Position numbers and translations under genes: made by a program
DNA from: Candidatus Desulfobacula maris
GTDB lineage: Bacteria; Desulfobacterota; Desulfobacteria; Desulfobacterales; Desulfobacteraceae
NCBI GenBank assembly: GCA_014383445.1
Contig: JACNHV010000384.1
Span: 1 to 34,351 of the forward strand
DNA: 34,351 nucleotides
Reading direction: 5' to 3'
Shown here: piece by piece, positions 11,932 to 28,518 of the stretch
Numbering within the stretch: the stretch's first letter is position 1
Layout of the letters: every line of letters starts with the position of its first letter
The notes under the pieces: model-generated
Databases searched by the model: none
Seen by the model: the letters and a program-made list of their open reading frames with translations, nothing else
Told to the model about the DNA's origin: nothing

Positions 11932-13266
11932 TTATTTCATAATGGAGTTTGCAACCACCTCAACAATGCTTTTGACCTTAAAATCCAGATCATAGTTTTC
12001 TGCGATGTCCCGGATCTGGTTTTTACAATTAAAACAACCTGTAATAACAGTTTTTGCACCGGTTTCCCGGATCTGATCAGCCTTTATTTTTCCCATCCTT
12101 TGACGGATATGCCCCAGATCACCCGTGGATGCGAGTCCTCCCCCGCCGCCGCAACAATAATTATGAACGCCCGTGGGGGTCATCTCCACAAAATTGCTGG
12201 TCAATGCCCGGATAACGCGTCTGGGTTCCTCAATTACCCCACCCCTGCGACCTATATTGCAGGGGTCATGATAGGTAACAGGGCCTTCAAACAAATCTTT
12301 TTCAAGTTTTAGAATCCCTTTTTGAATGTATAGGTCAATGAGTTCTACCAGAGTATAGATTTTAAAATTAAACCGCTCTCCTATGATTTTTTCCATTTCA
12401 TGTTTTAATACACGATAGCCATGACCACAGGGTGCTAAGACAATGGATTTGGCATTAATTAGTTTTCTGGCCTCAAGGGGGTTGCTGGCAACCTGGAAGG
12501 CATTTTCCTTGCTGCCCTGGTAAAACGCATAGTTGGCTACATCAAAGCCTTTTGTGGAAAGGGTGAAATTTTCATTGGCAGCGGACAGGATTTTGAGTTC
12601 ATCCATGAGAAGAAAAGGAAGATCCCTTAATGTCAATGGGTGTGGTACATAGAGAACTTCAGCATTCTCTTTGTCTATGGGCAGGGTAAACCCTTCTCCC
12701 ATGTCGTCTTCCATTTCTTCGGCAATCCATTCAATGGTGTCGATGAAATCATCTTTGGAAAGTCCCAGATAGTTGCCCGTCTCAAGGGTGGTATTAACAG
12801 GGCCGACAAGCCCGGTAGGCAGACGTCCAAGTCCGAATAAAAGAGCTCTTGCCACATACATGATTTCACCGGTATTAATGCCCATGGGACAGGTGAGCGC
12901 ACAATTGCCGCAAAGGGTGCAGTTTTCAAAGGCTGCCCTGTAGAGTTCGTCAAATTTCGGATTGGTCATGGGGTCCTGGGTACTTGAAAGCCCCAGTTTT
13001 AATTTGATCGGATGGAAATACTCTGAGATAATTTTGGATAATACCTTGATCCGGTTTGCCGGAATATGATCAGGGTCCTGTTCGGAACAATAGTAGTGAC
13101 AGGCGTTAGCGCATGCTCCGCAGTTAATGCAGGCATTGATCATGGAAAAAAATTTGGTGCTGGTATATTTATCATAGATGCCCCTTAGTTTTTCAATATA
13201 TTCCGAGGAGCTTAATTTGTTTCCGGCATCTGCTGAAGAGATTTTTGAATCGGGTTGGGCAATCAT
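11932..13266 (-). CDS. tmcB: HdrD-like Fe-S protein with CCG domain, TmcB-like
   Basis: A 444-residue cytoplasmic-side electron-transfer protein. Two [4Fe-4S] motifs are visible, Cys46-49-52-56 (with an extra Cys60) and Cys116-119-122-126. The C-terminal half has one clear cysteine-rich CCG module: Cys336 (DPCN), Cys371-Cys372 (NYCCGGGGG) and Cys411-Cys414 (GCFNC); in HdrD, DsrK and TmcB this binds a special [4Fe-4S] cluster. An upstream Cys280 is what remains of a first CCG module. The frame is open further upstream, but AAGGA lies 8 bases before the ATG at 13266 and the extension runs into tmcA. With its cytochrome c3 and cytochrome b neighbours it best fits the Tmc complex of sulfate reducers. 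DsrK or a generic HdrD homologue is the alternative. Confidence 0.8.
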   Translation of the reverse strand: MIAQPDSKISSADAGNKLSSSEYIEKLRGIYDKYTSTKFFSMINACINCGACANACHYYCSEQDPDHIPANRIKVLSKIISEYFHPIKLKLGLSSTQDPMTNPKFDELYRAAFENCTLCGNCALTCPMGINTGEIMYVARALLFGLGRLPTGLVGPVNTTLETGNYLGLSKDDFIDTIEWIAEEMEDDMGEGFTLPIDKENAEVLYVPHPLTLRDLPFLLMDELKILSAANENFTLSTKGFDVANYAFYQGSKENAFQVASNPLEARKLINAKSIVLAPCGHGYRVLKHEMEKIIGERFNFKIYTLVELIDLYIQKGILKLEKDLFEGPVTYHDPCNIGRRGGVIEEPRRVIRALTSNFVEMTPTGVHNYCCGGGGGLASTGDLGHIRQRMGKIKADQIRETGAKTVITGCFNCKNQIRDIAENYDLDFKVKSIVEVVANSIMK

Positions 13267-13285
13267 GTTTTGTTTCCTTAAAAAA

Positions 13286-13690
13286 TTATTTCCTGTGACA
13301 TTCACCACAGGTTGTAGGTCCGGCTGTCTTTTTTTCTTTTTTCATTTCACGGTGGCAGCCTGTACAGCTCGCATGACTGGCTTCTCTGATGGCCAGTATA
13401 TTGTCAGATTGCTCAGAAGTGTGACATTCTGAGCAGGCAGCCTCTTCGCCTTCAGTGTATACCAGTTTGTTTTGCTCAATATCTAAAACATGATGGCACC
13501 TGGCACATCCCGTATCTCCAAGGCTGTCCTCGTGCACGGTATGGTCAAATGCAGGTTCAGGTCTTTTCTGGTTTGAAAAGAGTGTGAAATGATCAGCTTT
13601 CCGGGTTTCTTCCTGTGTCATGGCTTGCTGAAGAAAGATGGTAAAAAGGCATAAAATAATGATGCCCGGGATTAATATCTTGTATTTCAT
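13286..13690 (-). CDS. tmcA: Periplasmic tetrahaem cytochrome c3, TmcA-like
   Basis: A 134-residue secreted class III cytochrome. The first ~26 residues form a signal peptide with a long hydrophobic run. Four CxxCH haem-binding sites are present: CARCH (62-66), CSECH (86-90), CTGCH (109-113) and CGECH (128-132). His50, His53, His67 and His106 are placed to act as second axial ligands, as in cytochrome c3. It is acidic in the middle, as type II c3 (TmcA) is, with a basic stretch near 117-121. In sulfate reducers this protein takes electrons from periplasmic hydrogenases or formate dehydrogenases through type I c3 and passes them to the membrane complex. AGGA is 8 bases before the ATG; 33 bases follow tmcC. 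Confidence 0.85.
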   Translation of the reverse strand: MKYKILIPGIIILCLFTIFLQQAMTQEETRKADHFTLFSNQKRPEPAFDHTVHEDSLGDTGCARCHHVLDIEQNKLVYTEGEEAACSECHTSEQSDNILAIREASHASCTGCHREMKKEKKTAGPTTCGECHRK

Positions 13691-13723
13691 TATAAATTTC
13701 CTTTATTTCAATGGGGTTGAACC

Positions 13724-14386
13724 TTACCAGTCACGGGCCTTTAAAACATTTCCGAAATCAGCCCCCATATAATACCGTGAAAAGGGATAGGCAATCATGT
13801 GCCAGAGCCTTGTAAAAGGAATCATGACAATGAGAAGTTCACTGGATAGAATATGAACAATCAGCAGTGGCCGATAAGGACCAAACTGATGAAATGCCAT
13901 AAAACCGGTTAGAAATGAAATAAAGATAAGAATCAGGAGCACAAAATCAGACGGCTGGGTTACCATTCTTATTTCAGGAATCACCAGTCTTCTGACAAAA
14001 AAGAAGATGCATGAAAAGAGAACAAAAAGGGTCATGATATCAGCAAGACCATTGGAAATATTTTTCCATAATACCCCGTATGATTCAAACCATAATACAA
14101 TATGAGCCATGAAAAAAAGGGGGATTAAAACAACACACAAATGAAACAAAACCGTAATACTAGTAAATATGGGTCTTTTCCTCATAAATCGTGTGGCAAA
14201 TGGGATAAGACCGAACAGAATGGATTTGAATCCATTGGTCAGGTTCTCTTTTGGATAGAGCATTTTCGGGTTGAAGCCCTTGAGATAAAAGCTGACCAGC
14301 CTGAAACAGCAACCTAAAATCAGCACTGCAAATGAGATCATTGCCAAAGGTCCGCGTACAAATTCATAAAAATCCAATTTTTCCAT
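13724..14386 (-). CDS. tmcC: NarI-like membrane cytochrome b subunit, TmcC-like
   Basis: A 220-residue membrane protein with about five helices (roughly 12-34, 75-100, 112-132, 147-166, 172-195). Candidate haem b ligands His82, His95, His166, His178 and His196 lie in or next to helices, as in NarI, DsrM and TmcC. It would carry electrons between the periplasmic cytochrome and the cytoplasmic Fe-S protein, or exchange them with quinone. It is the first gene of the three-gene run, after a 194-base gap from the hydroxyacyl-CoA dehydrogenase. AAGG touches the ATG with no spacing, so the ribosome-binding site is poor. Fewer helices than TmcC or DsrM would suggest another family; here the count fits. 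Confidence 0.75.
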   Translation of the reverse strand: MEKLDFYEFVRGPLAMISFAVLILGCCFRLVSFYLKGFNPKMLYPKENLTNGFKSILFGLIPFATRFMRKRPIFTSITVLFHLCVVLIPLFFMAHIVLWFESYGVLWKNISNGLADIMTLFVLFSCIFFFVRRLVIPEIRMVTQPSDFVLLILIFISFLTGFMAFHQFGPYRPLLIVHILSSELLIVMIPFTRLWHMIAYPFSRYYMGADFGNVLKARDW

Positions 14387-14580
14387 CCTTATCTGGTATT
14401 GAAAAATTAAGAAAGAACAAGTCTTCCCACGACATGCCTTCCCTTACTAACAAGAATATTTGTATGCAAACTTGAATTCCAAGTCAAGAAATAATATCAG
14501 CTTGTGGACAACAGAATGGATATTAATGATAAGGATGGCTATGAAAAGTGTGACTGGTTTTTTGGGGCACGCAATATGTA

Positions 14581-15441
14581 TCAATCAATGCCAGAATAGT
14601 CATAAACCCCTTTTCCTGTTTTTTTACCAAATCGTCCGGCTCTGACTAGTTTTTTTAAATATGGGGCAGGTATATATTTATCACCCATCTCCCTGTGAAG
14701 GCCCTCAATCACACGAAGAATGGTGTCAAGGCCGACAAGATCGGCCAGGGCAAGGGGACCCATGGGGTGGTTGCATCCCAGTACCATTCCTTTATCAATA
14801 TCCTCGGCACTGGCAATTCCTTCACCCAGAACAAAAAATGCCTCATTGATCATGGGACAAAGAACCCTGTTTACAGCAAAGGCTGGGGCTTCATCCACAA
14901 CAATGGTTTCCTTGCCAAGGGTTTTTCCCCATTGTTGTGCAATAGCAAGGGTTTCATCAGAGGTTTCATGACCTTTGATGATTTCCAGCAATTTCATTAT
15001 CGTGACCGGATAAAAAAAATGGGTGCCGATGAATTTATCCGGCCTGTCTGTAACAGCGGCCAGTTCAGTGATGCTCAGGCCGGATGTGTTGGTGAAAAAA
15101 AGACAGTGTGACGGCACAATGCTTCCCAGATCTCCATATATTTTCTTTTTAATATCCATGATCTCAATGATGACTTCCACTGCAATATCAGCGCCATCCC
15201 CAGCTTCATTGAGATCCAGGGTGGGTGTGATTCTTTTGAAAATATCATCCATTTCCATCTGGTCTATTTTTCCTTTTTTAACATTGCTTTCCAGGTTTTT
15301 TCGGATGGTTGCCATGCCCTTGTCAACAAAGCTTTGTTCTATATCCCTTAACATCACCTGATAACCTGCCTGGGCACAGGCCTGGGCAATCCCGCTGCCC
15401 ATCAATCCCGCACCCAATACACATATTTTTTTGATATCCAT
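14581..15441 (-). CDS. 3-hydroxyacyl-CoA dehydrogenase (3-hydroxybutyryl-CoA type)
   Basis: A 286-residue single-function enzyme that oxidises (S)-3-hydroxyacyl-CoA with NAD. The Rossmann motif GAGLMGSG is at residues 10-17. The expected active-site residues are Ser120 (TNTSGLS), His141, Glu153 and Asn191 (AFAVNR). The usual active-site sequence HFFNPVP reads HFFYPVT here, replacing the conserved Asn and Pro after the catalytic His. Upstream TTG at 15444 could start it, but GGAG sits 7 bases before the ATG at 15441. It follows the acyl-CoA ligase on the same strand after a repeat-filled gap and fits the third step of beta-oxidation; no hydratase, thiolase or acyl-CoA dehydrogenase gene is nearby. 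Confidence 0.93.
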
Positions 15442-15475
15442 CAATGGTCTCCTTTTTTATACCTTATTCAGGCAT

Positions 15476-15540
15476 GGTTTTAAGTTTTAGGTTTTAAGTT
15501 TTAGCCTAAATCCTAAAACTTAAAACCTAAATCCTAAAAC
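15476..15540. repeat. Tandem and inverted repeat forming a 64-nt hairpin
   Basis: GGTTTTAAGTTTTA is repeated exactly in tandem at 15476-15489 and 15490-15503. The following DNA holds the reverse complement: GGTTTTAAGTTTTAG (15490-15504) pairs exactly with CTAAAACTTAAAACC (15513-15527), and pairing extends out to 15477/15540 with two mismatches. CCTAAATCCTAAAAC occurs twice, at 15505-15519 and 15526-15540. The structure sits between the acyl-CoA ligase and hydroxyacyl-CoA dehydrogenase genes. It may act as a processing or termination hairpin or be a mobile intergenic repeat. Confidence 0.7.
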
Positions 15541-15607
15541 AATCTCGAATAGTTTCAAGTCTCTACCCAAAATTGAAAAACTATATTTCTGACTTTTCAT
15601 CCAGGCA

Positions 15608-17419
15608 CTATACATCATAAATCGTTTCAATTTCTTTGGCAAATTTTTTATAAATCGTGGCTCTTCTGACTTTCATGGTGGCAGTCATTTCATTATCGTC
15701 ATGGTCCAGTTCTTTGGTCAGAAGCAGGAATTTCCGGATATTTTCCACCCGGCTGAACCTGGCATTGACTGTGTTTACAGCCTCCTGGATTAAAGTTTTA
15801 ACCTCTGGCATCATGGATAGCGATTTAAAGGTGGTATAGGCTATCTGGCGGTTGCTGGCCCATTTGCCCACATTTTCAAAATCGATCTGGATCAGGGCGG
15901 ATATGAATTTTTTCCCATCCCCCAGCACAATGGCTTCCTTGATATAGGGGCTGACCTTGAGTTCGTTTTCAATCTGGGAAGGGGCAATGTTTTTACCGCC
16001 TGATGTGATGAGGATGTCCTTTTTCCGGTCTACAATGGAAACATGCCCGTCCTTGTCCACAGTGGCAATATCTTCAGTCATAAGCCAGCCATTGACAATG
16101 GTTTTGGCTGTTGCTTCCGGATTTTTATAGTAGCCCATAAAGATGCTGTCTCCTTTTTTCATCAGCTCACCGTCCGGGGCCAGTTTATATTCAATACAGG
16201 AGATGGGTTTGCCCACAGTACCCAGCTTGATATCATTTCCCATGTGGATAAAGGAAAGCCCAGTGCACTCGGTCATGCCATAGCCTTCCTTGACGCAAAT
16301 GCCCATGGCGTGGAAAAACAGCAGTTCCTCAGGGCTGACCTTGGCTGCGGCAGACAGGCATATCCTGACCTTTCTTAAGCCCACATAATTTTGCAGGGCT
16401 CTGAATATCAGCCAGTATCCTGCCCGCCAGGATAGTTTTAAGCCCAGATTAATTTTTTTTTTGTCAAGGCGCAGATTTGCCACCTTGTAGCCAATGGCCA
16501 TGCACTGATCAAAGAAAAAGCGCTGAAACCGGCTGGAGTCCTGGATTTTTATGGTAATGGAACTGTGCAGTTTTTCCCAGATCCGGGGCACCCCAAGAAA
16601 TACAGTTGGCGCAATTTCCCTTAAATCCTGCTGGATTGTGGAAATACTCTCGGCAAAATTGACAGTATTTCCAACAAACAAGGGCAGGTACAAACTGAAG
16701 ATCTGTTCTGCCACATGGCAAAGGGGCAGATAGGAGACAACCGTGTCTTTTTGACTGACTTCCATGGCTTCGGCAGAAGCCATGGCCGTTGCCGCAACAT
16801 TAAGATGGTTGACCATGGCACCCTTGGGCGGACCCGTAGTGCCCGAGGTATAGATCATGATACAGACATCCTCAACATTTCCTTTATTCACTTGTTCAAG
16901 AAAATGATTGGGGCTTTTTATTTCCATCTGTCTGCCAAGTTCTTCGACCTCTTTGAACGAGATAATGATGTCTTTGGGATATTTTCGCAACCCTTTCATA
17001 TCCTTGACAATAATTTTTTTCAAACGGGGCAGGTCATCGATGACTTCAAGGATTTTGTCGGTCTGTTCCTGGTCCTCGGACAGGATAAAGACTGAATCGG
17101 AATGGTGAATCACGTATTTGACTTCAGCATAGGGACTTGTGGGGTACACGCCCAGGGTGACCCCCCCGAGACTGATACATGCAAGGTCAGCATAAAGCCA
17201 TTCCTTGCAGTTCTCACTGATGATGGCCATATGATCCCCTCGTTTAAAACCAAGGGTCACAAGCCCAAGTGCGAAATGCTGAACATGGTCAAGATACTGG
17301 TTCCATGTGATGCGCTGCCAGATCCCGAAATCTTTTTCACGCAAAGCCACCTGGTCACCGCATTCTGCAACCCGGTCAAGAAAGACCCGGGGCAGGGTTC
17401 TGTTTGTCAGCTTAACCAT
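15608..17419 (-). CDS. AMP-forming long-chain acyl-CoA synthetase (FadD/FAA1-like)
   Basis: A 603-residue adenylate-forming enzyme that activates a carboxylic acid to an acyl-CoA using ATP. The P-loop YTSGTTGPPKG is at 190-200, GYGMTE at 379-384, and the hinge region SIVDRKKDILITSGGKNIAP at 461-480. The motif usually written GWLHTGD reads GWLMTED here, keeping the Asp. The long N-terminal lead and total length match the FAA1 long-chain type rather than acetyl-CoA synthetase. GGAGG is 5 bases before the ATG, inside livF; the two genes overlap by 13 bases, so translation is likely coupled. Next to a Liv-type importer, the natural reading is that it activates the imported acid; the acid is not known. 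Confidence 0.9.
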   Translation of the reverse strand: MVKLTNRTLPRVFLDRVAECGDQVALREKDFGIWQRITWNQYLDHVQHFALGLVTLGFKRGDHMAIISENCKEWLYADLACISLGGVTLGVYPTSPYAEVKYVIHHSDSVFILSEDQEQTDKILEVIDDLPRLKKIIVKDMKGLRKYPKDIIISFKEVEELGRQMEIKSPNHFLEQVNKGNVEDVCIMIYTSGTTGPPKGAMVNHLNVAATAMASAEAMEVSQKDTVVSYLPLCHVAEQIFSLYLPLFVGNTVNFAESISTIQQDLREIAPTVFLGVPRIWEKLHSSITIKIQDSSRFQRFFFDQCMAIGYKVANLRLDKKKINLGLKLSWRAGYWLIFRALQNYVGLRKVRICLSAAAKVSPEELLFFHAMGICVKEGYGMTECTGLSFIHMGNDIKLGTVGKPISCIEYKLAPDGELMKKGDSIFMGYYKNPEATAKTIVNGWLMTEDIATVDKDGHVSIVDRKKDILITSGGKNIAPSQIENELKVSPYIKEAIVLGDGKKFISALIQIDFENVGKWASNRQIAYTTFKSLSMMPEVKTLIQEAVNTVNARFSRVENIRKFLLLTKELDHDDNEMTATMKVRRATIYKKFAKEIETIYDV

Positions 17420-18210
17420 CTTTTCCTCCGCTTGTAGTGTTTTACGTTGCGGTAGCTGGTATTATCGTTTCCATCCCCCATGCCAAGGTAAAATTCCTGG
17501 ACATCCCTGTCCTTCAATAAAATATCCACAGGCCCGTCCAGCACAATCCTGCCCGTTTCCATTATATATCCATAATTGCTGATTTCCAGTGCCAGCTGGG
17601 CATTCTGCTCCACAAGCAGAATAGCGGTTCCCTCATTTTTATTTATCTTTTTAATGATCTCAAAAATTTCTTCCACAAGCATGGGTGCAAGCCCCATGGA
17701 AGGTTCATCCAGCATCATCAGGGTGGGTGTTGCAAGCAGGGCTCGGCTGATGACAAGCATCTGCTGTTCCCCGCCGCTCAGATATCCGGCCAGGCGTTTG
17801 TAACTTCGTTTTAATATGGGAAAATACTTAAAACACTTATCCAGATCAAGGGCAATTTGTGCGCGGCTTTTTTGGGTATAGGCCCCGCAGATCAGGTTTT
17901 CTTCAACGGTCAGGTCTTCAAAAACCCGCCGGCCCTCCATGACCTGAAAAATGCCCTTTTTTACAATTTTGTGGGGTGTCAGTCTGGTTATAGACTCTCC
18001 CTTGTAATAAATTGTTCCATCAGTGATAGCACCGTCCTCCAGGGGCAGAAATCCGCTGATGGCCTTCAATGTGGTGGACTTGCCTGCACCGTTGGACCCG
18101 AGCAAAGCCACAATAGAACCTTTTTCTACTTTAAGGGACAACCCTTTCAGTACCAGGATGATATTGTTGTAAAGCACTTCTAAATTATTAACTTCAAGAA
18201 TAGATGACAC
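17407..18210 (-). CDS. livF: Branched-chain amino acid-type ABC transporter ATPase LivF
   Basis: A 267-residue ABC ATPase of the HAAT importer family. Walker A GSNGAGKST is at 38-46, signature LSGGEQQ at 144-150 and Walker B LMMLDEP at 164-170. LivF usually ends near residue 235-240 after a FYLG-like motif; this one has an extra basic tail of about 25 residues ending in VKHYKRRKRWLS. From memory, such a tail is common in LivF proteins encoded beside acyl-CoA ligases. GGAGG lies 6 bases before the GTG start. It is separated from livK by a 137-base gap with a hairpin, and overlaps the ligase gene. Confidence 0.93.
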   Translation of the reverse strand: MSSILEVNNLEVLYNNIILVLKGLSLKVEKGSIVALLGSNGAGKSTTLKAISGFLPLEDGAITDGTIYYKGESITRLTPHKIVKKGIFQVMEGRRVFEDLTVEENLICGAYTQKSRAQIALDLDKCFKYFPILKRSYKRLAGYLSGGEQQMLVISRALLATPTLMMLDEPSMGLAPMLVEEIFEIIKKINKNEGTAILLVEQNAQLALEISNYGYIMETGRIVLDGPVDILLKDRDVQEFYLGMGDGNDNTSYRNVKHYKRRKRWLS

Positions 18211-18299
18211 CTAAGTCCTCCTGCTTGATTTTAACCCATTGATGCATCCTGGCGCCTGAATTACCAATTTCAAATTCGGTTTGACGAACAAAGATAACT

Positions 18300-18333
18300 G
18301 GCCCGGACAGAAAAAGGATATCAAGTCCGGGCC
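18300..18333 (-). terminator. Intercistronic hairpin between livK and livF
   Basis: GGCCCGGAC (18300-18308) pairs exactly with GTCCGGGCC (18325-18333) across a 16-base loop, starting 14 bases after the livK stop. No U run follows on the minus strand, so it is more likely a 3'-end stabiliser or partial attenuator than a full terminator. That is common after genes for binding proteins, which are needed in excess over the other subunits. Confidence 0.5.
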
Positions 18334-18347
18334 CTTGTTATTTATTT

Positions 18348-19529
18348 TTATTCATCCAGCTTGATCCAGTCGGAAACTGCTACAAATTTACCACCCTGGG
18401 CTTTATAAACTTTTCCCGAGGCAGTGGCGTTTGACTTGCTGAAGCTTACCACGCCGTTCAGGCCGCCCGTATCCCAGTTGTTTACCTTGGGGAGCATATC
18501 TTTAAGATTTTCGCCTGTTATGGGCAGCCCTGCTTCATGACACATCTGGGCCAGTTTCACATAGACCATGCCCGTGAACCATCCCTGCATATAGGAGTTG
18601 GGCTTATAGGTTTCATCGGGATAGTGTTTTTTATTATAGGCTTGAATGGTCTTTATCATGGGAACATCATCCATGTACCAATAGGCATAGGGACACACCC
18701 CCATATATCCTTCCGCATCCGGACCCAGCTTATCAAGCAGCATTTTGCTCATGGCCCAGAATGTTCCCATAAAGGTGATGTCAAGACCAAAATCCTTTGC
18801 CCCTCTTATGACTTCTGGTATGGGTGGAACCACATAACCCTGGAAAATACAATAATCAGGCTTATTGCGTTTCAGGTCCAGAAGCTGGCTGGTAATATCC
18901 ACGGCCCCGACTTTTGTCACCTCTTCAGCCACAACTTCGATCCCCAGTTCACCGGCTAATTTCCTGGCAAAGGGAATAGGGTCCCGGCCAAATTCCGTGT
19001 CACTGTAAAAAAATGCCACCCTGTGGGGCTTGTTGTTTTTCTTTGGCTGGCCGGCAATATATTTTAACAGAACACCAAATTGCTGGGAATAGGTGGGGCC
19101 GCTTACAAAGGTATAGGGGTTTTTTTCTCTGTCAGCAAGTTCTTCAGAAAAACTGGTGGAACCATAGAGCACGTGATACCGGGAATTGATTTCCGGTGCC
19201 ATGGCTTTTCCTACCCCTGTGGACTCGCCATACATCATGACGGGATTATCCTGTGCCATTATTTTTTTAAACGAAGCAATGGCACGCATAAGATCATATC
19301 CAGTATCTTCATAAATATATTTGAATTTTTTCCCTCCGACTCCGCCCTGTTCATTGGCATAGTCTAAAGAGTCCATCAGCCCCTGATGGATATGTTTGCC
19401 TGCAAAGGCAAACCTGCCTGTGATGGGCTGGCCTGCACCTACCTTGATTTCCTCATCGGCAAATGATACGCCCATGCATAATAATAATGATAAAACCAGA
19501 ACCAGGGTTGAAACAATACGTTTTTTCAT
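18348..19529 (-). CDS. livK: Periplasmic binding protein of a Liv/HAAT-type ABC transporter
   Basis: A 393-residue exported solute-binding protein. The first 24 residues are a Sec signal peptide (Lys-rich start, hydrophobic core, VSFA before the acidic DEE). The one Cys in the core is in LLLC and does not make a lipobox. The mature part opens with the family pattern IKVGAGQPITG and FAFAGKHIHQG, and has type I periplasmic binding folds. The ligand cannot be read off; relatives bind branched-chain amino acids, amides, urea or aromatic acids. AAGGAG lies 5 bases before the ATG at 19529. It is the fourth gene of the liv run. Confidence 0.92.
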   Translation of the reverse strand: MKKRIVSTLVLVLSLLLCMGVSFADEEIKVGAGQPITGRFAFAGKHIHQGLMDSLDYANEQGGVGGKKFKYIYEDTGYDLMRAIASFKKIMAQDNPVMMYGESTGVGKAMAPEINSRYHVLYGSTSFSEELADREKNPYTFVSGPTYSQQFGVLLKYIAGQPKKNNKPHRVAFFYSDTEFGRDPIPFARKLAGELGIEVVAEEVTKVGAVDITSQLLDLKRNKPDYCIFQGYVVPPIPEVIRGAKDFGLDITFMGTFWAMSKMLLDKLGPDAEGYMGVCPYAYWYMDDVPMIKTIQAYNKKHYPDETYKPNSYMQGWFTGMVYVKLAQMCHEAGLPITGENLKDMLPKVNNWDTGGLNGVVSFSKSNATASGKVYKAQGGKFVAVSDWIKLDE

Positions 19530-19576
19530 GATCACTCCTTTTTTAATGGTTTATGGGTTAAACGGTTTATGTTCAA

Positions 19577-20620
19577 TTAGTGTTCAAAGGGCCACAGATG
19601 GAAATAGTTTTTGATACGTCTCCAGATTTCAGCCAGACCGTGGGGTTCAAATACCAGGAATATAACAATCAATAATCCAAAGATGACCTGTTGCAGCGGG
19701 AAAAGAAAACTCATGGCCGTTGGAAAGATATTGACCAGAAATCCAAGGATAGTGCTGATTACCTCAGGTACAATGGTCATGAAGATAGCGCCTAGTATGG
19801 AACCCAGGATACTTCCCATGCCGCCCACAATAATCATTGCCAGGTATCGAACACTTTCCAGTAAGGGGAAATGCTCTGGAGTTATAGTTTTTAAGAAATT
19901 TACCCAGAGGCATCCTGAAATTCCTGCCAAAAATGAGCTTAAGGCAAAAGCATAGGTTTTATAGCGCAAAAGGTTGATGCCCATTAGTTCGGCTGAAATG
20001 TCCCGGTCTCTTATAGCAATAAATGCCCGGCCCACCCTGGTTCGAAAAAGATTCCTGGCAAAGGTTACACACAAAATGACCATGATAAGGGTCACAAAAT
20101 AAAATTTAAAATCATTGTCCAGAACATACCCGAAAATATCCGGCGGAGAAATGTTCATACCCCGGATTCCTCCGGTCATGGATTCCCAGTGGACAAAAAT
20201 AAACTCAAGGATCAATTGGGCTGCCAGGGTAGCAATGCAAAGATACAATCCTTTCAGGCGCAAGGAGGGCCCACCGACTATTATGCCGAAAAAAGCTGCC
20301 ATGAGACCGGATAAAGGAAGGCATAAAAGAAAGGGCAGATCAAAACGGGTGGATAAAATTGCAGCAGTATATCCGCCAACTCCAATGAAAGCCGCATGAC
20401 CAAGAGATATCAGACCGGCAAAACCTGTGAGAATATTCAAACCCACTGCCCCGATGATAGTGATGCCGGCAAGATTGGCCATGAACAGAAGATAATCCCC
20501 GGCCACAAAGGGAAATAGTATCAACAGAGCAAACAGAATGCCCAGCCAGAAACGGGAGGTGGCATTTATAAAAACAGCCTGGTCTGATGCGTATGTTTCC
20601 TTAAAGTCTCCAATGTGCAT
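19577..20620 (-). CDS. livM: ABC transporter permease LivM
   Basis: A 347-residue inner-membrane permease with about nine to ten helices. Family-typical segments include GLNILTGFAGLISLGHAAF (about 60-78), GPSLRLKGLYLCIATLAAQ and the cytoplasmic coupling loop TRVGRAFIAIRDRDISAELMG, which touches the ATPase. Together with LivH it forms the transmembrane pore. It begins 18 bases after livH; AGAGG lies about 10 bases before the ATG. Length is normal and no defects are seen. Confidence 0.93.
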   Translation of the reverse strand: MHIGDFKETYASDQAVFINATSRFWLGILFALLILFPFVAGDYLLFMANLAGITIIGAVGLNILTGFAGLISLGHAAFIGVGGYTAAILSTRFDLPFLLCLPLSGLMAAFFGIIVGGPSLRLKGLYLCIATLAAQLILEFIFVHWESMTGGIRGMNISPPDIFGYVLDNDFKFYFVTLIMVILCVTFARNLFRTRVGRAFIAIRDRDISAELMGINLLRYKTYAFALSSFLAGISGCLWVNFLKTITPEHFPLLESVRYLAMIIVGGMGSILGSILGAIFMTIVPEVISTILGFLVNIFPTAMSFLFPLQQVIFGLLIVIFLVFEPHGLAEIWRRIKNYFHLWPFEH

Positions 20621-20638
20621 AAATACTTTACCTCTTTG

Positions 20639-21523
20639 TTAAAGCCGCTCGATTTCTTTTGTGCCGAACAGGCCATGGGGTTTTATCAAGAGGATGAAAA
20701 TCAGGACAACAAAGGGGGCAAGGTCCTTGACACCACCATGAAAATAGGGGTCCAGATAGCCCCCGGCCAGGTTTTCCACAATACCCACGATAAATCCGCC
20801 AATGACAGCCCCGATAATGGAATCAAGACCTCCCAGGATCACTATGGGAAATATTTTTAGTCCGATATGCCCCAGGGTAGGCTGAACTCCACCGATGTTG
20901 CCGATGATGATTCCGCCCAGAGATGCAGCGATGGCACCAAATGCCCAGGAAATAGTAAACATGGTTTTGACGTTGATCCCCATGGAAAAAGCAGCCATTT
21001 GATCATTGGCTGTGGCCCGCATGGCCACACCGACTTTGGCGTACTTGAAAAGGAGTAGAAAGACCGCCACCACGACCATGGCCATTAAAAATCCGTAAAA
21101 AAGATTGGACCGCAGCACTATCTCTCCTAAAATAATGGGCTTTCTGGGGAAAAGAGGAGGGAAGCTCCTAAAGCTGGAGCCCCATATGATTTCTGCCAGC
21201 CCCAGCAATATGGAACTTAAGCCAATGGTCACCATTATGATACTGATATTGGGCTGTCCGAGCATATGTCTTAAAATCAGGCGCTCAACCAGAAAGCCGA
21301 GGATTGCGGCAAAGATAATGACAAGGGGGAATCCGATAAAGGGCGATAATTTTAAATATACCACCAGAGAATAAAAAATATACGCTCCGATCATCATGAA
21401 TTCACCTGTGGCAAAATTGATGATATTGGTGGCCTTATAGATGAGTACAAAACCAAGGGCAATGAGCGCATAGATTCCCCCGACCAGAAAACCGCTGGCA
21501 ACCAGCTGCAGGAAGATGTCCAT
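20639..21523 (-). CDS. livH: ABC transporter permease LivH
   Basis: A 294-residue permease with about eight helices. It opens with MDIFLQLVASGFLVGGIYAL and has the family segments NFATGEFMMIGAY and the coupling loop KVGVAMRATANDQMAAFSMG. The frame is open up to 21631, but those 36 extra codons lie within the end of livG and are hydrophilic; AGGA 5 bases before the ATG at 21523 settles the start. It follows livG by 13 bases, consistent with one operon livG-livH-livM-livK-livF. Confidence 0.93.
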   Translation of the reverse strand: MDIFLQLVASGFLVGGIYALIALGFVLIYKATNIINFATGEFMMIGAYIFYSLVVYLKLSPFIGFPLVIIFAAILGFLVERLILRHMLGQPNISIIMVTIGLSSILLGLAEIIWGSSFRSFPPLFPRKPIILGEIVLRSNLFYGFLMAMVVVAVFLLLFKYAKVGVAMRATANDQMAAFSMGINVKTMFTISWAFGAIAASLGGIIIGNIGGVQPTLGHIGLKIFPIVILGGLDSIIGAVIGGFIVGIVENLAGGYLDPYFHGGVKDLAPFVVLIFILLIKPHGLFGTKEIERL

Positions 21524-21536
21524 TTTTATCCTTTTC

Positions 21537-22331
21537 TCATATAATGGCAGTTCTGTTGGTTTTAGCTTTTTTTTTGCCCAGGTATGCCTCAATGACATCC
21601 GGATGTTTTTGTACTTCTTTTGGGGTTCCATGGGTCAGCGCCTGGCCGAAATTTAAAACCAGAACCCTGTCTGAAATATCCATAATCATTTTCATGTCAT
21701 GCTCAATGAGGACTATGGTGGTATCGTACTCTTCTTTAATATCAAGAATAAACCGGGCCATGTCCTCGGTCTCCTCGGCATTCATGCCGGCAACGGGTTC
21801 ATCCATCAAAAGAACCTTGGGACGCATGGCAAGAGCCCGGGCCAGTTCAACTCTTTTTTGCAGGCCATAGGCAAGGGCGCTGACCGGGTGGTTTCGAATG
21901 GATTCAATCTCCAGAAAATCAATGATATCTTCTTCAATTTTCTTTCTCAGCTCCATCTCTTCCCTGTGAGCGGCCCCCCAATACCACAGTGCTGACATTA
22001 AACCTGTTTTTAAATGGTAATGGGCCCCCAGTTTGATATTATCCAACACAGACATGCCATGGTAGAGGGCAATATTCTGGAATGTTCTGCCCATGCCCAG
22101 TGCTGCTCTCTTGTCTGCCGGCATGTGGGTGAGATCATTGCCATTGAAAAAAACTTTCCCTTTTTCAGGACGGTAGAAACCGCTGATAATATTCAGTATA
22201 GAGGTCTTGCCGGCACCATTGGGTCCGATAATGGCAAATATTTCGCCCTGGTTTACATCAAAGGATACATCTGACAAAACATTTAAACCGCCAAAGGATA
22301 GAGATATATGATCTATGGAAAGAATTTTCAT
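21537..22331 (-). CDS. livG: ABC transporter ATPase LivG
   Basis: A 264-residue ABC ATPase. Walker A is GPNGAGKTS, Walker B is VLLMDEPVAGMN. The ABC signature reads LAYGLQKRVELARAL, the non-canonical 'YG' form usual for LivG rather than LSGGQ. A histidine switch is in LIEHDM. AAGGA lies 6 bases before the ATG. It is the first gene of the liv run; upstream is a 265-base AT-rich space with a TATAAT-like box (minus strand, 22434-22439) and a perfect 38-bp palindrome. The first promoter of the operon should be in that space. Confidence 0.94.
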   Translation of the reverse strand: MKILSIDHISLSFGGLNVLSDVSFDVNQGEIFAIIGPNGAGKTSILNIISGFYRPEKGKVFFNGNDLTHMPADKRAALGMGRTFQNIALYHGMSVLDNIKLGAHYHLKTGLMSALWYWGAAHREEMELRKKIEEDIIDFLEIESIRNHPVSALAYGLQKRVELARALAMRPKVLLMDEPVAGMNAEETEDMARFILDIKEEYDTTIVLIEHDMKMIMDISDRVLVLNFGQALTHGTPKEVQKHPDVIEAYLGKKKAKTNRTAII

Positions 22332-22522
22332 GCTATTTCCTTACCTCATTTTTTATCTACCTGAGAATTATGTTTCACTGATAGATTCCAATTTGCTTTG
22401 ATGAGTAAAACAGTTTTGCAAAGTATTTTAATGATTATATTTCTCTAACACCATTTGATGGAAAAAAGAAACTAAAAAATTTATAAATTATATAAAATAT
22501 GCCCAGGAGGAGATCTGTGACT

Positions 22523-22560
22523 ATTTGGCGGAAATGGCAGTACTGCCATTTCCGCCAAAT
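22523..22560. promoter_or_regulatory. Perfect 38-bp palindrome upstream of livG
   Basis: ATTTGGCGGAAATGGCAGT (22523-22541) is followed directly by its exact reverse complement (22542-22560): 19 bp arms and no spacer. It lies 36 bases after the rhomboid stop codon and 191 bases before the livG start, all on the minus strand. As RNA it would be a strong hairpin that could end the rhomboid transcript, although no U run follows; as DNA it could be an operator for the liv operon. The rest of the 265-base gap is AT-rich with no gene. Confidence 0.6.
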
Positions 22561-22596
22561 GCCGGGTTATTTATAATAGTAAAGAAAGAATCCGGT

Positions 22597-23466
22597 TCAA
22601 GTTGCAGCAAGGAAGGATGAGGCAATGATAAGGATGGTTATAAAAAAGGCGATGAAATCCTTTTGAGGAAAGGCAAGTGTTCTGTTCAAGGGAAAGAAAA
22701 TAATGCCCGTTCCAAGCCCGCTTAAAAATCCAAATACATGAGCCATAACATCTGTACGCTCGCCCTGGCTGAACATGCCGACCATCAGGGCACCGGCAAA
22801 GACAGGCATCAGGTTGTTCAATCTAAGCGGTTTTCCTTTTTGGGTTACCTGGAAGGCCACAAGAAGGCCTGCTGCTGCCATGACAGCTGTTGAGGCCCCA
22901 ATGGAAAGATGTGCCGTCTGGTAAAGGTGAGCATTGAAAAGATTGCCAAGGGTCCCGGCAAACAGCAGCATAAAAGGCCCCACACCAAACCCGGAAAGGC
23001 TTATAAAGGGTGCCCCGAAAATGAGCATGCCGGCTATATTTCCTGCAAGGTGCCGGGCATCTGCATGCAGGAACAGTGCGGTAATAGCCCTGTAGGTCTC
23101 TCCCTGGAGGATAAAAAGGGCAGAGGCTCCATATTTTAATATCATGGCTTCGTGGATATGGTAATGAATACAGGCTGCATGAATAAGCCAGAGCAGTCCC
23201 ATGATACAGAAGGCTGGATATGATTTAAATGAGGATATGGGAATTTGGTGTAGCTGCTGTTTTAGCCTGAAAAATTTATTTTCTTTATAATAGGTCTCAA
23301 CCATGATGCGGGCTTTTTCCATATCTGCTTTATTTACAAGGATATTAAATAAATTATTTTCCTGTTCAGCATGATTTTCAATATTTTGAGAGGTTAAAAT
23401 TAGGATGATTAAATCTGCTTTTTTGTCAGGAAGACCAATGAATAGTTTTTCCATATTCCGGCTCAT
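22597..23466 (-). CDS. Rhomboid family intramembrane serine protease
   Basis: A 289-residue membrane protease that cuts transmembrane segments of other proteins. The catalytic Ser192 is in GASTAV and His243 in AHVFGFLSG; the HxxxN pair, His139 and Asn143, which shapes the oxyanion hole, is in RHLAGN. Six or more helices cover residues about 83-285. The N-terminal ~80 residues are a cytosolic extension with a region rich in Asn and Glu, like the N-terminal domain of GlpG-type rhomboids. Start is uncertain: ATG at 23466 has no ribosome-binding site; an ATG four codons later is possible. It is divergent from the FAH-family gene. Confidence 0.88.
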   Translation of the reverse strand: MSRNMEKLFIGLPDKKADLIILILTSQNIENHAEQENNLFNILVNKADMEKARIMVETYYKENKFFRLKQQLHQIPISSFKSYPAFCIMGLLWLIHAACIHYHIHEAMILKYGASALFILQGETYRAITALFLHADARHLAGNIAGMLIFGAPFISLSGFGVGPFMLLFAGTLGNLFNAHLYQTAHLSIGASTAVMAAAGLLVAFQVTQKGKPLRLNNLMPVFAGALMVGMFSQGERTDVMAHVFGFLSGLGTGIIFFPLNRTLAFPQKDFIAFFITILIIASSFLAAT

Positions 23467-25250: not shown

Positions 25251-25367
25251 TATAATTAAGTAAATGGTAAATGGTAAGGGAAGCTAAGCTGCTGGTTTTT
25301 CTCACTACTTAAAACTCATAGCCCAGTGCTTTCATATAAAAGTATAATGTGTAAAAAAGAGAAAAAA

Positions 25368-27164
25368 ATGAAAAAATATAAGTTTCCATGGATATCTCCT
25401 TTATTCCTTATAGGTGTTTTATTGATCATGTTACCGATTTTTACATTCATGACCCTTGACAGGCTTGAAAAACAAAATGAATTTTTTACCCAGAGATTAT
25501 TGGAAAAGGGTGCTTCATTGATAAGAACATTTGAGGCGGGAACCCGGACCGGAATGTTCACCATGAGATGGGGCGCAAATAGAATACAGGCCATGCTTTT
25601 GGAAACCGCGTTGCAGCCTGAAGTTATCTATATGATGATTACATCAAAGGATGGCCTGATACTGGCACACTCGGATGCATCCTTGGTGGGACAGATTTTT
25701 GATGCCATGCCCGGGACGGTAAAGATAAATGAAGATACGGCCATGGTCTATCACAGGGTAAAACTGCAAAAAGATCAGAGCCAGGTTTTAGATCAGAGCC
25801 AGGTTTTTGAAGTGTTCAAGCGGTTTGTACCGATCAAGTCCGGTGCAAGGCGGCGGCATATGCGGATTGATGGAATGCCAATGCACAGGTATCAGAATTC
25901 GCCTGATATGTCGAAGTTTGAAAAAGAGAACAAGGACTGGAGTCAACCCTATCTTAAACACCAGGGGGATATGCTGTCTGAAATGGCGGAACATTATATT
26001 TTTGCCGGCCTTTCCATGGAAAGGGCAAGGATCGCCCGGGACAGATTGGTAAAAGAGACTGTCTGGCGGGGCATTCTGTTTTTTATTTTAGGATGCGTCG
26101 GTATGGCAGCTTTGTTTGTTTTCCAGGCGTACAGATCTGCAAAAGCCTCACTGACAAGTGTTAAGGCCTTTTCCGATAATGTGATCCAGAACATGCCGGC
26201 AGGACTGATTACGATTAATCAGGACCATGAAATCACATCTGTGAATAATGCTGCAAAAAATATTTTAGGAGGGGATTTGACTCAACCCTACCCGCAAATG
26301 ATTGAATTGATAAAGGAAATGGAAATATCACAAGAGGTTCTCAACCGGGAGATCAATTTTATTATTGCCCAAGACCGAAAGCTTGATCTTGATATAACTG
26401 CATCCCCTATTAAGGGTTATGAAAATCAAATCATGGGATTTTTATTTCTTTTCAGAGATCTCACCCAGATAAGGGAGCTAAAAAAACAGGTGGAAACAAA
26501 CAAACGCCTTGCAGCCATTGGAAAGCTTGCAGCAGGTGTTGCCCATGAAATCAGAAATCCTTTGAGTTCCATCAAAGGGTTTGCAACCTATTTTGGTAAA
26601 CGATATGCGGACAAAGACTCAGACAAGGAGATTGCACAGATTATGGTCAAGGAAGTGGAACGTATCAATCGATCAGTTACCCAGTTGCTTGAGTTTGCAA
26701 AACCCATGATCGTTGAAAAAAAACAGGTGGATATCAAAGAGATGATCACCCATTCTTTAAAACTTGTTCACCATGATCTGGGGAAAAAAAATATTGAAAC
26801 AAGGGTCAATATTGATACAAAAAAAATAGTAATTCACACAGACGGCGACCGGATGAACCAGGTCCTTTTAAACCTGTATATCAATGCCATAGAGGCATTG
26901 GATGACAAAGGGATACTGGAGATACAGGTACAGGATGCTCCAAAAGATGAGCAGATAGAAATAAGGGTTAAGGATAACGGCCAGGGTATAGATGAGGCAT
27001 CCCTTGATCTGATTTTTGATCCCTATTTTACCACCCGGCCCACGGGCACAGGGCTTGGCCTTTCAATCGTTCACAGGATAATTGAAAATCTTGATGCAAG
27101 CATTCGTGTGGAGAGCATAAAAGGTAAGGGTACGTGTTTTATTATCAATCTGCCTGTTTCATAA
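25368..27164 (+). CDS. Membrane sensor histidine kinase (ZraS/HydH-like)
   Basis: A 598-residue kinase with two membrane helices (about 9-29 and 234-254) around a periplasmic sensor domain of about 200 residues, then a PAS domain (about 266-370), the HisKA box with phosphorylated His393 (AAGVAHEIRNPLSS), and an ATPase domain with Asn506, DNGQG (536-540) and GTGLGLSI (560-567). The sensor domain is rich in Met and His near residues 164-174 (HMRIDGMPMHR), possibly for metal. An 18-bp direct duplication at 25773-25808 gives two DQSQV[LF] copies (136-147). ATG at 25368 is taken over upstream in-frame starts at 25347 and 25326 because GAGA precedes it and the helix follows. The regulator gene follows after 10 bases. 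Confidence 0.9.
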   Translation: MKKYKFPWISPLFLIGVLLIMLPIFTFMTLDRLEKQNEFFTQRLLEKGASLIRTFEAGTRTGMFTMRWGANRIQAMLLETALQPEVIYMMITSKDGLILAHSDASLVGQIFDAMPGTVKINEDTAMVYHRVKLQKDQSQVLDQSQVFEVFKRFVPIKSGARRRHMRIDGMPMHRYQNSPDMSKFEKENKDWSQPYLKHQGDMLSEMAEHYIFAGLSMERARIARDRLVKETVWRGILFFILGCVGMAALFVFQAYRSAKASLTSVKAFSDNVIQNMPAGLITINQDHEITSVNNAAKNILGGDLTQPYPQMIELIKEMEISQEVLNREINFIIAQDRKLDLDITASPIKGYENQIMGFLFLFRDLTQIRELKKQVETNKRLAAIGKLAAGVAHEIRNPLSSIKGFATYFGKRYADKDSDKEIAQIMVKEVERINRSVTQLLEFAKPMIVEKKQVDIKEMITHSLKLVHHDLGKKNIETRVNIDTKKIVIHTDGDRMNQVLLNLYINAIEALDDKGILEIQVQDAPKDEQIEIRVKDNGQGIDEASLDLIFDPYFTTRPTGTGLGLSIVHRIIENLDASIRVESIKGKGTCFIINLPVS

Positions 27165-27174
27165 AAGGATAAAA

Positions 27175-28518
27175 ATGAAAAAAATACTTGTTGTTGACGA
27201 TGATGCAGCCCATGCCAGAATGCTTGAGGCAGTGATGGCAGACTGGGGGCTTGTGATTCATCTGGCAGATGATGGGGCAGTCGCCGTTGATATGGTAAAA
27301 AACCAGCCCTTTGATATAGTTCTCATGGATATGAAAATGGTGAAAATGTCCGGGATGGAAGCTTTGCAGTTGATTAAAGCCTATAATCCTTCTTTGCCCG
27401 TGATCATCATGACGGCCTATTCATCCGTACAGACTGCTGTGGAAGCCCTGCAAATCGGGGCCTATGATTACCTGACCAAACCCCTGGATTTTGATAAACT
27501 GAAATTAACCATTGAACATATATTTGAAAGTATTTCTTTAAAAACGGAAAACAGGCATTTGAAGATTCGGTTAAAGGAGAAAGATTTTTCCCATGACATT
27601 CTTGGAAAAAGTCCTGCCATTCTTTCCCTGCTTGATACCATTCACATGGTGGCACCCACTGATGCCAATGTTCTGGTCATGGGCGAATCAGGAACTGGCA
27701 AGGAACTGGTGGCATCTGCCATCCATTTTAATTCTTCACGAAAAGATCATCCCTATGTAAGGATTAATTGTGCCGCTATTACTGAGACCCTGCTTGAGTC
27801 CGAACTTTTTGGCCATGAAAAAGGTTCCTTCACGGGTGCAGACAAAAAAAGAAAAGGAAGGTTTTTACTGGCAGACAAGGGTAGTATTCTTTTGGATGAA
27901 ATCGGTGAAATGAGCCTTGCCATGCAGGTAAAGCTGTTAAGGGTAATTCAGGAAAAAGAAATCACACCAGTGGGAAGTGATGAAAATATTAAAACAGATG
28001 TGAGGATTATTGCCGCAACCAATAAGAATTTAAAGCAAATGTCAGAGCAGGGAGGCTTTCGCCAGGATTTATATTATCGGCTTAACGTTGTGAGTGTCGA
28101 GATCCCTCCCTTAAGGGAAAGAAAAGAAGATATCCCAACCCTGGCAAATCATTTTTTAGAAATTTTTTCAAAGAAAAACAAAAGAGATATAAAAGGTTTT
28201 TCTCCAGATGCCATGGATGCCATGATCCGGTATGAATGGGAAGGCAATGTCAGGGAATTGATGAACAGCGTGGAAAGGGGCGTGGTCCTTGCCAGGTCTG
28301 ACTATATCTGCAAACAAGACCTTTCTTTTATAAAGGTAACGGCTGCTGAAGGAATTGAAGGGGAAATGGATTTTGGAAATATCAGGCTTTCGGATATAGA
28401 AGAAAAAGCTATTCTTTCAACTCTTGAATCAGCCGAAGGCAACAAGAGTGAAGCTGCCAGAAGACTTGGTATTACAAGAAAAACCCTGTTAAAGAAATTA
28501 AAACAATATGAAAAATGA
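27175..28518 (+). CDS. Sigma-54-dependent response regulator (ZraR/NtrC family)
   Basis: A 447-residue three-domain activator. The receiver domain has phospho-acceptor Asp52 (LMDMKM), with Asp8-9, Thr80 and Lys102. The central AAA+ domain has Walker A GESGTGKE (170-177), Walker B ILLDE (238-242) and the sigma-54 contact loop GSFTGA (217-222), a known working variant of GAFTGA. The C-terminal FIS-type helix-turn-helix (about 419-447) has GNKSEAARRLGITRKTLLKKL. When phosphorylated by the upstream kinase it should bind the dyad upstream and start both sigma-54 promoters. AGGA is 5 bases before the ATG. Its stop is only 2 bases from that of tyrA on the other strand. Confidence 0.95.
   Translation: MKKILVVDDDAAHARMLEAVMADWGLVIHLADDGAVAVDMVKNQPFDIVLMDMKMVKMSGMEALQLIKAYNPSLPVIIMTAYSSVQTAVEALQIGAYDYLTKPLDFDKLKLTIEHIFESISLKTENRHLKIRLKEKDFSHDILGKSPAILSLLDTIHMVAPTDANVLVMGESGTGKELVASAIHFNSSRKDHPYVRINCAAITETLLESELFGHEKGSFTGADKKRKGRFLLADKGSILLDEIGEMSLAMQVKLLRVIQEKEITPVGSDENIKTDVRIIAATNKNLKQMSEQGGFRQDLYYRLNVVSVEIPPLRERKEDIPTLANHFLEIFSKKNKRDIKGFSPDAMDAMIRYEWEGNVRELMNSVERGVVLARSDYICKQDLSFIKVTAAEGIEGEMDFGNIRLSDIEEKAILSTLESAEGNKSEAARRLGITRKTLLKKLKQYEK

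Follow-up and report, generated by a model that had tools for sequence, protein, structure and literature searches.

A Tmc-like C-A-B gene module in Candidatus Desulfobacula maris with a CCG iron-sulfur subunit of probably separate lineage

Background

In transmembrane redox complexes of the Tmc family, a cytochrome c3 meets the periplasmic cytochrome pool, a cytochrome b carries electrons across the membrane, and an iron-sulfur protein with CCG domains meets the cytoplasmic partner. Here we analyze a run of three genes coding for one protein of each kind in Candidatus Desulfobacula maris (GenBank assembly GCA_014383445.1, contig JACNHV010000384.1). The genes lie in the order cytochrome b, cytochrome c3, CCG protein (C-A-B; the CCG subunit is called B' below) on the minus strand of a 34,351-nucleotide stretch, referred to as the window, and are transcribed from 14386 to 11932. 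The module probably encodes a complex that moves electrons across the membrane as Tmc does, in a chimaeric variant that joins Tmc-type C and A subunits to a B' of separate lineage.

Several departures from the four-subunit TmcABCD complex have been published. D. autotrophicum HRM2 is reported to have two TmcBCA clusters (PMC2702500). Desulfococcus multivorans carries at 2.38 Mbp a paralogous Tmc cluster without TmcD (Tmc2), 27-35% identical to Tmc of D. vulgaris, and most constituents of both of its Tmc complexes, TmcB2 not among them, were reported under all 17 substrates (PMC5109826). Seep-SRB1a and Seep-SRB1g have a divergent Tmc in which TmcA is missing and TmcD is present, which its authors read as adapted to another electron donor (PMC10553843). 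The C-A-B module resembles the Seep-SRB1 complexes in being a rebuilt Tmc that lacks one subunit, but here the missing subunit is TmcD and B is of another lineage. The literature searched yielded no account of a Tmc whose CCG subunit had been replaced by another; the comparative genomics of Pereira et al. 2011 may mention one.

Results and discussion

Genes and proteins of the C-A-B module

The first gene (13724-14386, minus strand) encodes a NarI-like cytochrome b of TmcC type with 220 amino acids (Pfam PF02665, Nitrate_red_gam) and five hydrophobic helices predicted from hydropathy. His82, His95, His178 and His196 are candidate haem b ligands and invariant in all 14 aligned rows, which include TmcC, HmcE and a DsrM-like row. 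A spacer of 33 bp separates it from the gene of the A subunit (13286-13690, minus strand; 134 amino acids; PF02085, Cytochrom_CIII), a TmcA-like tetrahaem cytochrome c3 with four CxxCH motifs spaced 24-23-19, one N-terminal hydrophobic, signal-like segment and, after residue 24, 20 Asp and Glu versus 14 Lys and Arg. B' (11932-13308, minus strand; 458 amino acids as called) is an HdrD-like CCG iron-sulfur protein (PF02754, CCG; PF13183, Fer4_8) whose cysteines form two 4Fe-4S motifs and one full C-terminal CxnCCGxnCxxC site. Since its GTG start overlaps the c3 gene by 23 bases, the ATG at 13266 is more likely the true start. These coordinates, Pfam and NCBIfam results bear out the original prediction, made from the letters of the window, of a NarI-like cytochrome b, a four-haem c3 with signal peptide and an HdrD-like CCG protein in one run. 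The same holds for its statement that no TmcD-like gene adjoins them: tblastn with TmcD gave no match in the window, nor in those CAB loci (loci of this module type) that were searched.

Family scores place the three proteins near Tmc. The best NCBIfam model for C is TmcC (235 bits, cut-off 240), ahead of HmcE (174 bits against a cut-off of 275), and the best for A is TmcA (85 bits, cut-off 114). B' scores 249 bits with TmcB (cut-off 735), 245 with DsrK (400) and 224 with HmcF (750). Judged by sequence, then, each protein is recognizably Tmc-like and none of the three reaches its equivalog cut-off. The module differs from HmcABCDEF in having neither the 16-haem HmcA nor the NrfD-like subunit, and the HmcF and HmcE scores are far under their cut-offs; no multihaem or NrfD-like family was found among the nine window proteins scanned by Pfam.

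That a Tmc family is the best match of all three proteins would also suit a plain divergent Tmc paralogue. Under that explanation the three subunits descended together, TmcD was lost, TmcB evolved fast or split off before Tmc and Hmc parted, and the complex would function like Tmc, from the c3 pool to DsrC or sulfite reduction. We regard this as rather unlikely, mainly on account of B'.

B' falls outside the TmcB clade

For the CCG phylogeny, 152 candidate rows were thinned by identity to 69 and joined by two outgroup rows in a quick tree of 71 rows; seven long-branched or doubled rows (an EMO piece, an HdrD-like row entered twice, L115, L116, L103_533 and L107_1170) were then dropped, leaving 64. 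(G, C and L numbers denote genomes, contigs and loci of our comparison.) In the 64-row tree the 19 CCG proteins of CAB type form a 100/100 clade outside TmcB plus HmcF (100/100) and apart from the four DsrK rows (100/100). The phylogenetic check proposed with the original prediction thus puts B' in a clade of its own, within none of DsrK, TmcB and HmcF. Two candidate identities of B' are thereby rejected: DsrK by the tree, and TmcB by the tree, by its 249 bits against a cut-off of 735 and by the approximately unbiased (AU) test, in which a joint clade of CAB CCG proteins and TmcB has p = 0.00035. Which other CCG group stands nearest to the CAB clade has little support in this tree (49/25).

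Identities argue in the same direction, against the divergent paralogue. B' is no closer to TmcB (27.8%) than to HmcF (28.0%), and on average another CCG group (34.1%) stands nearer to it than TmcB does (28.4%). The degree of conservation of B' among CAB loci is similar to that of TmcB among Tmc loci. A foreign origin of B' is well supported.

The module shares with DsrMKJOP and DsrMK-like pairs a NarI-like subunit combined with a CCG iron-sulfur subunit. DsrK, however, lacks the last CCG cysteine in all four rows compared, whereas B' keeps the full site. Compared with the TmcABCD encoded in its own genome (L039), the module has a TmcC-type cytochrome b, a TmcA-like tetrahaem c3 and an iron-sulfur protein with a dicluster and a CCG part, likely giving the same transmembrane wiring; it differs in the absence of TmcD, in the order C-A-B instead of D-C-B-A, and in a CCG subunit only about 30% identical that falls outside the TmcB clade. 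The last two haem motifs of the c3 are 19-20 apart in the module; in c3 proteins linked to TmcB the spacing is 14 in nine of 12 rows and 19 in L128, L131 and L135.

The C and A subunits side with Tmc

We chose nine CAB and ten Tmc loci for a comparison of the three subunits. Across the 90 CAB-Tmc pairs, mean identity was 44.9% for C, 38.0% for A and 30.5% for B, and B exceeded C in none of them. Within each kind of locus B is the more conserved subunit, at 65 versus 55% among Tmc (43 of 45 pairs have B ahead of C) and 64 versus 56% among CAB (36 of 36 pairs). A column bootstrap with eight CAB, nine Tmc and five Hmc loci gave opposite signs for the two subunits: the CAB-Tmc identity minus the Hmc-Tmc identity was +5.2 points for C (1.5 to 9.0) and -7.5 points for B (-10.6 to -4.5).

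In trees of C and A combined, CAB stands on the Tmc side of the Hmc branch, with support of 99/98 in a 39-row tree and 100/98 in a 51-row tree; the larger tree includes ten more Tmc rows and two split C-A pairs, and L183 was left out of the smaller one. For a careful cytochrome b tree, 12 of the 79 rows were dropped because their branches were long or because they were surplus DsrM-type sequences. In the cytochrome b trees the DsrM rows form a separate long-branched clade, and the clade of the C subunit groups with TmcC. A grouping of Tmc as one clade without CAB was rejected by the AU test on the 39 rows of C and A (p = 0.017). Nesting of C and A inside Tmc thus appears likely, and is not proven.

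Genome G392 has a complete D-C-B-A operon (L181/L239). The C and A encoded there belong to the closest relatives of their CAB counterparts and the c3 has the same haem spacing of 24-23-19, but the operon also has TmcD and a TmcB that belongs to the TmcB clade. Two genomes of the genus code of G392 have a C-A pair with no B between the genes and a separate CCG gene of CAB type. The sister relation of G392 to CAB in the C and A tree was 83/69 with more rows and is no longer supported.

Several results weigh against the chimaeric reading. The grouping of Tmc without CAB is no longer rejected when L181 is taken out of the held group (p = 0.095) or when 51 rows are used (p = 0.099), and CAB plus the split pairs fails to appear as a clade in the 51-row tree. 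Tests on C alone are not significant, neither for a TmcC clade without CAB (p = 0.328) nor for CAB outside Tmc plus Hmc (p = 0.577), and both outcomes suit the divergent paralogue. The TmcB of G392 scores 715 bits, itself just under the cut-off of 735. The stem of the CAB CCG clade is long (0.88), so that a true TmcB which merely diverged fast keeps some probability. Finally, the named carriers of the module, which include a Desulfobacula, an Olavius algarvensis Delta 4 endosymbiont and a Desulfosudis oleivorans genome, are all metagenome-assembled.

A genuine tmc operon in the same genome

The module is a paralogue, a second and different copy beside a genuine tmc. The genome (4.85 Mb, 94% complete) has a tmcDCBA operon on contig C61 (L039, 4637-8347), all four proteins of which, TmcD included, score above the NCBIfam cut-offs, and the only TmcD family match of the genome sits in this operon. 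HmcF is also found above its cut-off on contig C61, and DsrK above its cut-off on another contig.

Among 25 loci, all 11 that have the four tmc genes together show the order D-C-B-A from 5' to 3'. The original prediction had given the Desulfovibrio operon as A-B-C-D, which is the reverse reading of the actual order. What truly sets the two arrangements apart is the position of the CCG gene, after A in the module and between C and A in Tmc. In five other Tmc operons (L182, L183, L191, L192 and L197), the place of TmcA downstream of D-C-B is taken by a cytochrome that has 16 or 17 CxxCH motifs and a DsrO-like gene.

Comparison with Tmc2 of Desulfococcus multivorans

The TmcD-less Tmc2 cluster was considered as a published form of the module and is ruled out by its gene content: the locus (G044, L198) encodes a NarI protein, a 127-amino-acid dicluster iron-sulfur frame without a CCG domain, a c3 and a MetV-like protein. 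A frame of 127 amino acids is at odds with the 50 kDa given for TmcB2 in PMC5109826.

The same kind of locus recurs as a Tmc-like arm tied to methylenetetrahydrofolate reductase (MTHFR), consisting of a c3, a Cys-rich protein of 221-225 amino acids, a NarI-like protein and a dicluster iron-sulfur protein of about 127 amino acids. Such arms are present at L198 7120-9378 (minus strand), L199 7845-11182, L200 6273-8605, L202 5253-8621 and L203 5441-8791. The Cys-rich protein is MetV-like (DUF5981) in the three loci where this was tested (L198, L199, L202), and an MTHFR gene is present in L199, L202 and L203. For L198 the MTHFR gene was looked for only among the listed frames; D. multivorans Tmc2 is otherwise of the MTHFR-linked kind.

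A patchy accessory unit of Desulfobacterales

Counting the genome under study each time, the cytochrome b clade (at least 68% identity) is present in seven of 58 close genomes; within the order, the CCG type (E <= 1e-85) occurs in 18 of 389 genomes and in 11 of 150 genera. Nine of the 395 genomes in a phylum-wide sample matched B', the present one again among them; G466 and G431 (49-50% identical) were counted as the same type, and the other six belong to a group of 34-37% identity that stands apart from it. The order C-A-B is found in 16 of the 20 genomes with a B'-type CCG protein, the cytochrome b of G364 being cut by a contig end. Of the remaining four, G126 has C-B without a c3 between, G276 is cut by a contig end, and in G466 and G431 a C-A pair is present but the CCG gene lies elsewhere. 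TmcD was matched in 12 of the 20. The module is accordingly a patchy accessory unit in Desulfobacterales, found in genomes with a canonical TmcD gene as well as in others that lack one.

The NiFe hydrogenase family PF00374 is matched in 16 of the 20 genomes. This co-occurrence, together with the slower growth on H2 of Tmc mutants of D. alaskensis G20 (PMC4215793), would fit a hydrogen-cycling device like Tmc of Desulfovibrio. The carrier G143, which is 99% complete and has the C-A-B order, speaks against such a role: it has neither a PF00374 match (E <= 1e-10; FeFe hydrogenases were not searched) nor a TmcD match. Hydrogen cycling is, of the functions considered, the one to which we attach the least credence.

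At one of the 16 loci (G029, L044 8211-8528) the upstream neighbour of the module is a divergently oriented DsrC-like gene, an arrangement that would suit the divergent Tmc paralogue and its proposed link to sulfite reduction.

Two further arrangements were seen in the genomes searched. A gene for a PocR sensory-domain protein immediately precedes the CCG gene of CAB type in G466 (L103 8828-9397) and the module in G199 (L100 7380-7886). There is also a further family of NarI and CCG gene pairs, about 32-37% identical to B', with no c3 seen adjoining (L105-L110, L061, L062 and L103 12357-14854). These pairs have neighbours similar to the window genes at 25326-27164 and 27175-28518 (kinase- or regulator-like by tentative name) and are also accompanied by a macro-domain gene in L061 and L103 and by a TPR gene in L105.

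Upstream region and acyl-CoA genes

Directly upstream of the module, as the original prediction had noted, lie acyl-CoA genes. HBD and FadD genes belong to an 8.1 kb block that also contains LivF/K/M/H/G (14549-22624, minus strand; outside the module). From this position the possibility had been raised that the module lets electrons out of, or into, fatty- or aromatic-acid oxidation, instead of or besides hydrogen cycling. B' would in that case take electrons from electron transfer flavoprotein (ETF) or acyl-CoA oxidation and C and A would pass them to the periplasm, or the reverse. An acyl-CoA dehydrogenase gene in G042 and an AMP-binding gene in G199, each three genes off, would suit this proposal.

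The proposal does not survive comparison with relatives. In G012, whose module proteins are 93-97% identical, blastn shows window positions 14185-14548 running straight into 22625-23087, with the HBD, FadD and Liv genes missing. A rhomboid gene directly adjoins the module in G003 and stands two small frames further in G018; G014 has other genes there, and the block is at the site in none of these three. The acyl-CoA neighbors are thus unlinked to the module in four carriers of the same genus, which counts against the proposal by the test that the original prediction had set for itself. Among 25 genomes of the genus, the HBD gene has a close match only in G022 (85%), the next best being 61%, and no match above 60% identity was found in the module carriers G003, G014 and G018. 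In G022, which is 81% complete, the cytochrome b matches are all TmcC-like, at 42-43%. A 24-bp imperfect direct repeat with three mismatches stands at both ends of the block (14524-14547 and 22623-22646) and could be a trace of insertion or a chance match.

Neighborhoods elsewhere give the same picture. Sixteen other loci supplied 82 neighbor frames, of which 75 were scanned together and seven left out (one very long partial, six small or overlapping). Among the first 25 of 52 and the first 25 of 96 families, none occurred in more than two proteins of either set. When the 28 nearest or second-nearest neighbors at these loci were scanned singly, none matched an acyl-CoA-type family. The fatty-acid genes beside the module are therefore probably incidental, and the module is probably not tied to them.

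Between the block and the module lies a sigma70-like promoter candidate, TTGACT and TACAAA with a spacing of 17 (14455-14488, minus strand), about 70 bp before the cytochrome b start. In an alignment of five carriers of the same genus, these 34 bp are the longest well-conserved upstream stretch. The element would provide the module with a promoter of its own, and its position also speaks against a tie to the acyl-CoA block. Its promoter role is putative, and the sharing within the genus only counts against it: the aligned sequences of G029, G042 and G160, three carriers from other genera, do not show the element.

Predicted structure of B'

An AF2 model of B' built from a 44-row alignment has a mean pLDDT of 90.8; an earlier model from seven close sequences (55.5) was not used. 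The best PDB match is EtfD of M. smegmatis (9ojn), with a Foldseek E of 3.7e-16 and an alignment of 387 residues at Z 27.7 and root-mean-square deviation (rmsd) 3.2. LutA aligns over 228 residues with Z 22.9 and rmsd 2.7, and HdrB over 235 with Z about 20 and rmsd 2.8. The EtfD match hints at an ETF partner and with it the link to fatty-acid oxidation, as do phmmer scores against EtfD of 57.5 and 50.3 bits for two CAB proteins versus 29.6 for the TmcB of the same genome, 38.6 for DsrK-2 and 45.6 for one protein of the 34-37% group.

A structural match to EtfD is to be expected for such a protein, however, because 9ojn is its only sequence relative in the PDB at E <= 0.01. The pointer to an ETF partner is also weak because a 774-amino-acid iron-sulfur protein of the same genome, hydrophobic at its N-terminus, scores 51 bits against B' and just as many against TmcB. 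The genome moreover has a separate EtfB-like gene adjoining one for a 1077-amino-acid EtfA fused to Fer4 and two CCG stretches (L111 689-4760, contig C38). ETF:menaquinone oxidoreductase (EMO/EtfD) is a single polypeptide with membrane, Fer4 and CCG parts; the module is not of this type, being three separate genes with a c3. Together with the comparisons of neighboring genes, this leaves an outlet or inlet of fatty- or aromatic-acid oxidation very improbable.

Conclusions

As a chimaeric Tmc-like complex, the module would conduct electrons, inward or outward, along a chain made up of the periplasmic c3 pool, the A haems, two b haems in C, and the 4Fe-4S clusters and CCG-bound cluster of B'. 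At this last cluster a cytoplasmic thiol/disulfide or flavoprotein partner would be reduced or oxidised. Any function beyond transmembrane electron transfer is our inference from the sequences. The locus may have arisen from a D-C-B-A operon that lost D and B and gained a different CCG gene after A, giving C-A-B. The membrane arm seems to have been retained and its cytoplasmic subunit replaced, so B' may well have another partner than TmcB. Annotating such genes as tmcABC and assuming a hydrogen- or DsrC-linked function is unsafe.

More tentatively, Tmc-type arms might be regarded as a plug-in wire through the membrane with a cytoplasmic end that is exchangeable in evolution. The ends would be TmcB (for which DsrC or ferredoxin has been proposed as partner), B' (possibly with an ETF- or HdrB-like flavo- or thiol protein) and the short iron-sulfur proteins linked to MetV or MetF, as in Tmc2 of D. 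multivorans and similar loci. The CAB complex would in that case couple the periplasmic c3 pool straight to a cytoplasmic redox process distinct from sulfite reduction. Since the module would keep a Tmc arm with another CCG subunit, often beside a true Tmc, it offers a direct comparison for the residues that choose the partner.

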